Source of the DNA: a virus
Length of the DNA stretch: 27,306 bases
Virus record (IMG/VR): IMGVR_UViG_3300025072_000035
Coordinates: 1-27,306 of that record
Reading direction: 5' to 3' (one strand)
In this document: positions 24,622-27,306 of the stretch, in pieces
Position numbering within the stretch: the stretch's first letter is position 1
Layout: each line of letters opens with the position of its first letter
Made by a program: the position numbers and the translations under genes
Notes under the pieces: generated by a model
What the model saw: the letters and a program-made list of their open reading frames with translations, nothing else
What the model was told of the DNA's origin: nothing
Databases searched by the model: none

Positions 24622-24629
24622 TATATTTG
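24622..24629 (+). promoter_or_regulatory. Isolated TATATTTG box
   Basis: Exact TAnnTTTG match 12 bases after the previous stop, but no TTG at 17-23 bases upstream and a terminator starts 25 bases downstream. If active it would give only a very short RNA. Confidence 0.25.
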
Positions 24630-24653
24630 ATACTTACTTTTGTCATCTAAATT

Positions 24654-24688
24654 AAGGGGTAATCACTCTAATGGTTGCCCTTTTTTTT
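24654..24688 (+). terminator. Strong intrinsic terminator
   Basis: AAGGG (24654-24658) with CCCTT (24678-24682), one bulged G, then TAATCA (24660-24665) with TGGTTG (24672-24677) using two G-T pairs; loop CTCTAA; T8 at 24681-24688. Ends the ERF/winged-helix unit. Confidence 0.75.
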
Positions 24689-24695
24689 ACTCCTT

Positions 24696-24728
24696 TTGTA
24701 TTACGTATTGAATTAATTAGTATATTTG
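24696..24728 (+). promoter_or_regulatory. Bacteroidetes-type promoter for the replication genes
   Basis: TTG 24696-24698 and TATATTTG 24721-24728, spacing 22, within the 17-23 range. It sits just after the terminator and would start an RNA near 24735, directly before the structured leader. Confidence 0.6.
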
Positions 24729-24745
24729 AACTCAATAATAAAGTA

Positions 24746-24845
24746 ACGACCAACTTACAAGAAATTTTATTTTAAAACCTTATGTTGGAATGCCTCTTGG
24801 TCGTGGCTACCTTCATAAGGTTTTTTTATACAAAAAATTACGACC
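24746..24845 (+). promoter_or_regulatory. Structured leader: pseudoknot, terminator and start-codon-pairing motif
   Basis: Stem 1: ACGACCAA (24746-24753) with TTGGTCGT (24797-24804), 8 bp perfect. Stem 2: AAAACCTTATG (24774-24784) with CATAAGGTTTT (24814-24824), 11 bp perfect, followed by a T7 run (24821-24827). The arms alternate (1-2-1'-2'), so both can form only as an H-type pseudoknot. Stem 2 with the T run is a possible terminator. A second ACGACC at 24840-24845 lies one base before the ATG at 24847 and can pair with GGTCGT (24799-24804), competing with stem 1. This looks like a cis-acting attenuator or riboswitch-like element controlling the replication gene. Regulation is inference. 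Confidence 0.6.
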
Positions 24846-24846
24846 T

Positions 24847-25527
24847 ATGGCAGAAGATAAAAAAGGATTTATTTTATATGCAGACCAAAAGGAACTGTTT
24901 GAACAGTTACCAAATGACAAGGCAGGAGAATTGATTAAACATATATATAAGTATGTTAATGATGAAGACCCAAAAACAGATGACATTTTAATAAACTTAG
25001 CTTTCACTTCTATAAAACAGCAGCTAAAAAGAGATTTAAAGAAGTTTAAAGAAAAGATAGATAAAAAATCTATATCAGGTAGAGAGGGTAATTTAAAGCG
25101 TTGGAATTTAGACATTTACAAGCTATATAAAGATGGAACTTACACTTTAAAGGATGCTGAAAATATCGCAAATGGTCGCAAAGTATCGCACAGCGATAAA
25201 GTGCCATCGCAAAGTATCGCAAACATCGCTGTTAAAGATACAGTTAATGTTACAGTAATAGATACAGTTAAAGAGAAAGATATATTATATATAAAAAACG
25301 ATTTATTTAAATCTAACCAATGGAAAGAAAGTATAACAAGAATTTATAATTGCAAATTAATAGAGGTCGAAAAGTATTTAACTATATTTTTGGATGAACA
25401 AGAAATAGACGGAAATCTAAACAGAGAATTGAAAGAAATTAAAACACATTTTAGATCATGGTTTAAATTACAACCTTTCAAAAAGAATATTTCTAAAGAA
25501 CCTCATATACCTCGAATTGCTTTATGA
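24847..25527 (+). CDS. DUF6291-type replication protein
   Basis: 226 residues from ATG 24847. The frame stays open back to ATG 24790, which lies inside the leader structure, so I prefer 24847; the domain begins right after it. Residues 7-37 (GFILYADQKELFEQLPNDKA, then GELIKHIYKYV) and IKQQLKRDLKKFKEKI with GREGNLKRWN match the DUF6291 N-terminal domain of phage replication proteins. The C-terminal half (VEKYLTIFLDEQEIDGNLNR, then ELKEIKTHFRSWFK) is typical of Bacteroidetes phage proteins that act like DnaD or a helicase loader. The middle is a Thr/Ser/Val-rich linker. Its stop overlaps the primase-helicase start (ATGA). Confidence 0.65.
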   Translation: MAEDKKGFILYADQKELFEQLPNDKAGELIKHIYKYVNDEDPKTDDILINLAFTSIKQQLKRDLKKFKEKIDKKSISGREGNLKRWNLDIYKLYKDGTYTLKDAENIANGRKVSHSDKVPSQSIANIAVKDTVNVTVIDTVKEKDILYIKNDLFKSNQWKESITRIYNCKLIEVEKYLTIFLDEQEIDGNLNRELKEIKTHFRSWFKLQPFKKNISKEPHIPRIAL

Positions 25528-27306
25528 TAGATTGGAATAAAATAGAATTAAAAGGTCGAACATCTGGAAACTTTACTACATTATGTCCTGAATGTTCACA
25601 CACAAGAAAGAAAAAGAAAGACCCTTGTTTAAGTATTAACCTAGATAAAGGAGTAGGAAAGTGCCACCATTGCCAAGAAGTAACGATAAGAGAAACTAAA
25701 GAAATAAAAGAATACAAGTTACCCCCTCAAAAATGGCAGAACTATACAAAGCTATCGGATAATCTAGTTAAGTGGTTTAAAAACGAAAGAAACATTTCAC
25801 AGCAAACTTTAATTGATTGTAAGATAACGGAAGAAGAATATTTTCAACCAGCAGCAGGAAAGAAAACAAACAACATAGTATTTAATTATTTTGAAGGTGA
25901 TAAACTAATAAACAAAAAATACAGAAGCGGTAGCAAGCAGTTTACACAAACAGCACAAACAAAGAAACTCTTTTACGGTGTTAACGATATTGTAGGAGAA
26001 AAAGAAATATATTTAGTTGAGGGCGAAATGGATAAACTAGCATTTTGGGAAGTAGGAGTTAAAAATTGTATTTCAGTTCCAAACGGTGCAAACGATTTAA
26101 ACGATATTTTTGATACTTGCGAAAAATATATATCAGATTTAGAAAAGATTTACATTGCAGTTGATACAGACGAAGCAGGAAAGAAACTAGAAAGGGAATT
26201 ATTAAAAAGATTTGGAAAGTGGAAATGTGAAAGAATAGAATTTACTGGTAAGGATGCAAACGATTCTTTGAAAATATCTAAAGTTGAATTATTAGATAAC
26301 ATTAAAAACTCAATAGCCTATCCAGTTGACGGAACTTTTACAGCAAAAGACATCGAGGAAGATATATTTGATTATTTCGATAACGGAATTGAAGCTACAA
26401 TAGCACCCAACAATCCAAACTTTAAAGAATTGAATAGTAAATTTTCTGTAATGATGGGGCAACTAACAACAGTTACGGGTATTCCATCACATGGTAAATC
26501 TAATTTTATCGAGTGGTACGTGTTAAATTTAATAAATGATTTAGATTTAAAAGCGTCTTTCTATTCGCCTGAGCATTTCCCTTTAAAACTTCATCAGGGC
26601 GCAATGTCTGAAAAGGTAATAGGGAAATCATTCAATGAATCAAAGTATAGCGAACGAATGAGTAAGAATGAACTAAAAGACTATATCGAATGGAGCAAAG
26701 ATAAAGTTTATTTAACCTATCCTGAAAAAGGAGAGGTAGCAACTTGGGAATGGTTACTAGGAAAATTTAAAGAGCAAATGTTTAGATTTGGAATAGACAT
26801 ATTTGTTATTGATGCTTTTAATAAAGTTAAAAGAAACTCACCAGATTCATTAGGAGAAATAAATGATGTACTTTCAACCCTTACTTTATTTGCGCAAGCC
26901 TATGACGTACATATATTTTTAATTGCACACCCAACAAAAATGCGAAAAAATGATAGTGGAGTTTATGAAATGCCTACTTTGTACGATGTAAAAGGTTCGG
27001 GAGATTTTCGTGACCAAACACATAATGGACTTTGCGTATATCGAAACTTTGAAATAAAAGACGAAAGCGGAATGATTTTACAAGAGGGTAGCACAGTAGT
27101 AACGAATTTAAAAACAAAGTTTAAACATCAGGGTACAATAGGAGAAAACGCAAAATTTAGATTTAATATGCAAAACAATAGATACTATCCATATCATGAT
27201 AAACTAAGTAACAGCAGCTTAATACACGACAACAAAGAGCAGCAAACAGAAATACAAGACAGTTCTTTTAGTAAACCAATACAAGCAGACTGGCTAACAG
27301 AAGAAG
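25524..27306 (+). CDS. Primase-helicase (T7 gp4/Twinkle-like), 3' partial
   Basis: Starts at an ATGA overlap and is open to the window end (594 residues seen). N-terminal zinc ribbon with C21/C24 and C47/C50 (LCPECSH, KCHHCQ). TOPRIM domain: VEGEMDK with E166, and AVDTDEAGKKLE with D214/D216. Then a RecA-like helicase: Walker A GIPSHGKS (319-326), Walker B IFVIDAF with D430, LIAHPTKMRK, and DVKGSGDFRDQTHNGLCVYR. Zinc ribbon, TOPRIM and helicase in this order are the T7 gp4 architecture: it unwinds DNA and makes primers at the phage fork. It is the clearest sign that the phage carries its own replisome parts. Confidence 0.9.
   Translation, partial: MIDWNKIELKGRTSGNFTTLCPECSHTRKKKKDPCLSINLDKGVGKCHHCQEVTIRETKEIKEYKLPPQKWQNYTKLSDNLVKWFKNERNISQQTLIDCKITEEEYFQPAAGKKTNNIVFNYFEGDKLINKKYRSGSKQFTQTAQTKKLFYGVNDIVGEKEIYLVEGEMDKLAFWEVGVKNCISVPNGANDLNDIFDTCEKYISDLEKIYIAVDTDEAGKKLERELLKRFGKWKCERIEFTGKDANDSLKISKVELLDNIKNSIAYPVDGTFTAKDIEEDIFDYFDNGIEATIAPNNPNFKELNSKFSVMMGQLTTVTGIPSHGKSNFIEWYVLNLINDLDLKASFYSPEHFPLKLHQGAMSEKVIGKSFNESKYSERMSKNELKDYIEWSKDKVYLTYPEKGEVATWEWLLGKFKEQMFRFGIDIFVIDAFNKVKRNSPDSLGEINDVLSTLTLFAQAYDVHIFLIAHPTKMRKNDSGVYEMPTLYDVKGSGDFRDQTHNGLCVYRNFEIKDESGMILQEGSTVVTNLKTKFKHQGTIGENAKFRFNMQNNRYYPYHDKLSNSSLIHDNKEQQTEIQDSSFSKPIQADWLTEE

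Follow-up and report, generated by a model that had tools for sequence, protein, structure and literature searches.

In many Bacteroidota viruses, an RNA of about 95 nt lies directly after the promoter of the DNA-replication genes, and what these leaders keep is a shape and not a sequence: two hairpins, loops that pair together and a transcription-stop signal at the end. This family of Bacteroidota phage leaders is large and apparently undescribed. Comparison between leaders lends good support to the predicted fold, the U-run and the placement before replication genes, and we lean towards reading the element as a cis-acting, promoter-proximal attenuator which controls read-through into the early/replication operons of these phages. 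The initial annotation of this DNA knew of no named RNA family with such a layout, in agreement with our search of Rfam 15, which gave no family at the gathering threshold and nothing credible at relaxed thresholds. Likewise, open-licence papers on kissing loops, phage leaders, DUF6291 and attenuators contained no description of the element.

The element in the window

The window, i.e. the whole stretch of 27,306 nt of viral DNA that was analysed, carries the element in front of a replication operon. The parts are a 5' hairpin (P0), a terminator hairpin with the stems S2 and P3, and a loop-loop helix (S1):

24654-24683, + strand: upstream intrinsic terminator-like hairpin (sequence)
24721-24728, + strand: -7 promoter element TATATTTG, Bacteroidota-type (seen directly in the sequence)
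24743-24746, + strand: P0 left arm GTAA of the 5' hairpin (sequence and homologs, e.g. AGTAA/TTACT in L314)
24746-24753, + strand: S1 left arm (S1L) ACGACCAA, within the P0 loop (paired and covarying in the subtype C alignment)
24755-24758, + strand: P0 right arm TTAC (folding and homologs)
24774-24784, + strand: S2 left arm AAAACCTTATG, terminator stem (sequence and subtype C alignment)
24787-24791, + strand: 5' side of the subtype-C internal loop, GG then AAU (search motif GAAUGCC/GGCUAC; GG-CC pairs in 14 of 14 leaders)
24792-24794, + strand: P3 left arm GCC (folding and alignment; invariant and thus without covariation)
24797-24804, + strand: S1 right arm (S1R) TTGGTCGT, in the apical loop of the terminator hairpin (subtype C leaders and alignment)
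24805-24807, + strand: P3 right arm GGC (folding and alignment)
24808-24811, + strand: 3' side of the subtype-C internal loop, UA then CC (subtype C leaders and alignment)
24814-24824, + strand: S2 right arm CATAAGGTTTT (sequence and subtype C alignment)
24821-24827, + strand: U-run (T7) of the putative intrinsic terminator (sequence; 5-7 T in 7 in most leaders)
24840-24845, + strand: S1L', a second S1L copy (ACGACC) near the translation start and candidate competitor for S1R (recurs in relatives)
24847-25527, + strand: DUF6291 (and DUF7833) gene, the first of the replication operon (Pfam, E 8.8e-20)
25524-27305, + strand: TOPRIM/DnaB-like primase-helicase, running off the window (protein comparison)

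Every feature of the initial annotation was confirmed, coordinates included, on checking against the window sequence, and so was the placement before a replication gene; DUF6291 is followed by the primase-helicase. Since the P0 loop contains S1L and the apical loop of the other hairpin contains S1R, the predicted S1 contact is a kissing loop; the first base of S1L (24746) may belong to P0. Minimum free energy folding of the strand, for which a loop-loop helix is beyond reach, returned the terminator hairpin with P3 and, 5' of it, a 4-bp hairpin whose register (AAGU/ACUU) neighbours that of P0. Scored by simple stacking energy without loop penalties, S1 plus S2 (about -31 kcal/mol) outscores every other place in the 27.3 kb window where interleaved stems precede a T-run, the runner-up reaching -26.7. 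Adding the two flanking helices brings the score to -45, and no score of -38 or lower occurred in 930 kb of shuffles.

Two further proposals of the initial annotation did not hold. A helix between CCAAC (24750-24754) and GTTGG (24784-24788) is probably a coincidence: every one of the 14 relatives pairs GG 24787-24788 to CC 24810-24811, and one of these two pairs shows double-sided changes. The inner ATG (24790), suggested as the start of a leader peptide or an extended protein, is part of the conserved GAAUGCC motif and not a conserved start codon, and it is open into the gene in only 3 of 14 relatives. A leader-peptide attenuator, which would call for a conserved short ORF in the leader, was rejected on the same count.

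The hairpin at 24654-24683 may insulate the operon from upstream transcription, and a similar terminator-like hairpin was seen by eye upstream in the corresponding gap of phage lillamy9-1. We also observed a second TATATTTG within 24624-24690, upstream of the main promoter, with the same hairpin (24654-24683) within about 30 nt; no kissing partner was seen for this promoter/hairpin unit.

Conservation of the fold across phage leaders

IMG/VR relatives of the adjacent gene carry wholly different S1 and S2 sequences in the same interleaving, with a T-run at the end. The initial annotation had proposed covariation as a check, and the outcome favours the fold: relatives with entirely different stem sequences keep both stems by compensatory changes, with scores above shuffled and slid controls. 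In MAFFT alignments made from sequence alone, S1 is paired in 95.7% of cells in subtype A (23 leaders) and in 92.7% in subtype C (14 leaders); in both subtypes, 7 of 8 pairs have changed on both sides. The covariation score of subtype A, inflated as this set was picked by the structural scan, is 0.565 against 0.210 ± 0.016 in shuffled and up to 0.196 in slid controls (0/500 shuffles), and that of subtype C is 0.553 against 0.201 ± 0.021 and up to 0.156 (0/500 shuffles). Of the initial claim that the interleaved stems form either a pseudoknot or mutually exclusive folds, the first half stands in the form of a kissing interaction, and mutual exclusivity is not needed; S1 and S2 are conserved together, which suggests that they are co-formed.

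At a threshold of -38 for S1, S2 and the two flanking helices, 0.93 Mb of real loci yielded 55 plus-strand sequences, a count which still includes near relatives, and an equal amount of shuffled sequence yielded none. Four tests, several of which share loci, are less biased: i) among 27 DUF6291 leaders picked by gene homology and gap length only, 22 have the architecture (0.8% of shuffles), ii) a loop complement (S1) of at least 7 nt is present in 51 of 55 contigs picked by promoter and P0 arms only (1.7% in shuffles), iii) S1 of at least 6 nt is found in 14 of 16 contigs, window included, picked by promoter and subtype-C internal loop (7.9% in shuffles) and iv) with a covariance model lacking S1, all four non-seed matches that keep the apical loop have S1 (L141, L170, L180, L184).

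The order of parts is a -7 box (TAtaTTTG), P0 about 5-6 nt further on and near +1, an A-rich linker, the terminator hairpin and the U-run. The P0 loop holds S1L, with ANAUA-like bases in the commonest type, and the terminator hairpin is built from S2 and P3 around a recurrent internal-loop motif, its apical loop carrying S1R; the kissing helix usually has 7-8 bp. Of 94 nonredundant leaders, 90 carry TAnnTT[TC]G at most 45 nt ahead of S1L, a figure that is partly selection, as several subsets were picked with the promoter. Recurring sequence is limited to short loop and linker motifs, and stems and internal loops vary among leaders. Sorting by regular expression, which is rough and leaves further internal loops unclassified, gave three named types: A (UGAA/GGAU), B (AGUA/GAA), which presumably resembles the bulged-G motif, and C (GAAUGCC/GGCUAC), to which the window belongs. 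These several interchangeable internal loops and the lack of a conserved aptamer-like core speak against a riboswitch in the ligand sense, another suggestion of the initial annotation. Its proposal that the second stem can act as an intrinsic terminator is in line with the finding of at least 5 T in 7 after S2 in most leaders, in a scan that did not require a U-run.

Some leaders depart from this layout. The GC-richer leader at L034 2870-3000 has a long interrupted S1, and no U-run follows S2 although S1 and S2 are present. In the DUF6291 leader near L081 3890-3980, the stems interleave and the T-run follows the right arm of S1, not S2, as though the two stems had exchanged the terminator role. 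On the minus strand of L268 (~9104), promoter and P0 are retained and the apical half of the terminator hairpin is gone, perhaps in a decayed copy, and at L054 3464-3548 the linker contains an additional inserted hairpin (GAGC-GAAA-GCUC).

Genomic setting and known systems

A phage contig usually carries one element, sometimes two or three, and copies in one genome differ in their kissing sequences. One element each was reported in the replication-gene region of four annotated Flavobacterium and Cellulophaga phages (lillamy9-1 and 11b scanned as whole genomes, and 50 kb of elemoA and 9 kb of phi19:3), where it precedes DUF6291 or the small genes ahead of that gene; elsewhere the element lies upstream of DUF1376, Prim-Pol/DUF3987, a helicase, HNH or short ORFs. 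Replication-type genes come first or second after the element, and the start codon follows the end of S2 on the same strand at a median of 21 nt (mostly 12-48 nt). Of 60 DUF6291 genes, 31 have an element at most 2.5 kb ahead of them (0/300 shuffles), and about half of the sampled DUF6291 loci have none within this distance. In the elemo phage MT497065 (9900-9973), the element is closely preceded by an annotated tRNA-Met gene. In sampled Bacteroidota genomes, a limited first look by pattern and by a covariance model of subtype A only turned up few matches, most without the apical loop, and therefore the element looks phage-borne.

Parts of the layout are familiar from other systems, among them the repZ pseudoknot of the IncI plasmid ColIb-P9 (work cited in PMC10724649). 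In repZ, the partner of a hairpin loop lies close to where the replication initiator gene begins. This resembles S1R with S1L', but repZ is antisense-controlled, resides on a plasmid and is not known to have a promoter-proximal terminator kiss, and S1L' is a minority feature here. In pT181-type attenuators, the leader upstream of a plasmid gene likewise has a 5' hairpin, an intrinsic terminator and a loop-loop kiss; there, however, an antisense RNA is the kissing partner, and the terminator is blocked by an anti-terminator sequence of its own (PMC4878617), whereas here the kiss lies within one RNA. Antisense control was considered and rejected, as antisense promoters (CAAANNTA) are not enriched across leaders (25 vs 19.6 ± 4.7). 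As in lambda-type control, where a terminator between phage promoter and early genes makes read-through the control point (PMC9378689, introduction), a stem followed by a U-run stands between promoter and gene; the structures are unrelated as far as known.

Proposed mechanism and alternatives

In the attenuator that we favour, a host-type promoter would start transcription at about the base of P0, which would fold first and display S1L in its loop. Transcription of the apical part of the second hairpin would then expose S1R, the loops would kiss, and closure of P3 and S2 beside the U-run would give an intrinsic terminator, its large hairpin pre-organised by the kiss. By default, the short RNA of about 95 nt would be made, and the replication operon would be expressed only on read-through, which would be set by timely formation of the kiss or by a factor, host Nus-like or phage-encoded, that breaks or holds it. 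From this layout we infer termination itself, its efficiency, a regulator and the direction in which the kiss acts. No classical antiterminator fold was identified, since both helices can coexist.

A third copy of the left stem arm before the start codon, pointed out in the initial annotation, recurs in relatives. A copy of S1L of at least 6 nt between S2 and gene start is found in 8 of 93 leaders (about 1.7 expected by chance, a hand estimate) and is missing from most. In L320, L326, L332, L078 and L066 it is found between -5 and -11 relative to the start codon, and it was also seen by eye in L314 and L334; counting these two, 6 of the 14 S1-bearing subtype-C leaders have it. This recurrence suggests that one loop, S1R, could pair with two alternative partners, and the switch envisaged by the initial annotation is plausible. 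In subtype C, read-through transcripts would carry the second S1L at the start codon, and S1R could leave the 5' loop for the ribosome-binding region, so that translation would be controlled as well.

The main rival to the attenuator is an antitermination RNA like HK022 put, in which the double-hairpin rod would stay on the elongating RNA polymerase and make it resist downstream terminators, the U-run being the first to pass. We regard this as rather unlikely. HK022 putL and putR comprise two stem-loops in about 70 nt, located directly or soon after an early promoter, and antiterminate early-gene transcription (PMC9378689); the position of our element right after an early-type promoter, its usual one to three copies per phage and its two stems resemble putL, and free sequence with conserved shape is expected of a fold that binds polymerase or protein. 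In our element, the two hairpins after the promoter are joined by a long linker and a loop-loop helix. However, neither a kiss nor a terminal U-run is described for put (PMC9378689), whereas a T-run follows S2 in most leaders; several internal-loop types also argue against a single fixed polymerase contact.

We consider it improbable that the unit, with its own promoter, compact fold and terminator, makes a stand-alone RNA (a small RNA or decoy) that acts in trans, the adjacent gene being served by leaky read-through: the element mostly lies 12-48 nt before a start codon on the same strand, and its pairing sequences vary freely, also between copies in one genome, with no conserved trans target visible. 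Still more doubtful is a mainly translational switch, in which the 5' loop and S1L' are alternative partners of S1R, in the manner of the ColIb-P9 repZ pseudoknot, and the U-run is incidental; S1L' near the start in several leaders and its enrichment in subtype C fit, but the copy occurs in few leaders and the U-run is almost universal. Chance hairpins deserve next to no credence: short two-copy repeats are common in AT-rich intergenic DNA, but covariation and the out-of-sample tests exclude this origin.

Beyond the attenuator itself, we tentatively propose that an intramolecular kissing-loop terminator may constitute a new class of phage RNA device, defined by topology and spread across unrelated Bacteroidota phages, in which the +1 hairpin would sense the state of the terminator hairpin and gate read-through into the replication operon, and the same loop would capture the start region as a second layer. 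With its usual 7-8 bp, the kissing helix lends itself to a break-and-restore mutational test. Because the pairing sequences are free to differ from phage to phage, and from copy to copy in the same genome, the element could serve as a source of orthogonal transcription regulators. For the phages themselves, it probably decides the output level of the replication operon and offers a common structural handle on how these little-studied Bacteroidota phages may time the expression of their replication genes.
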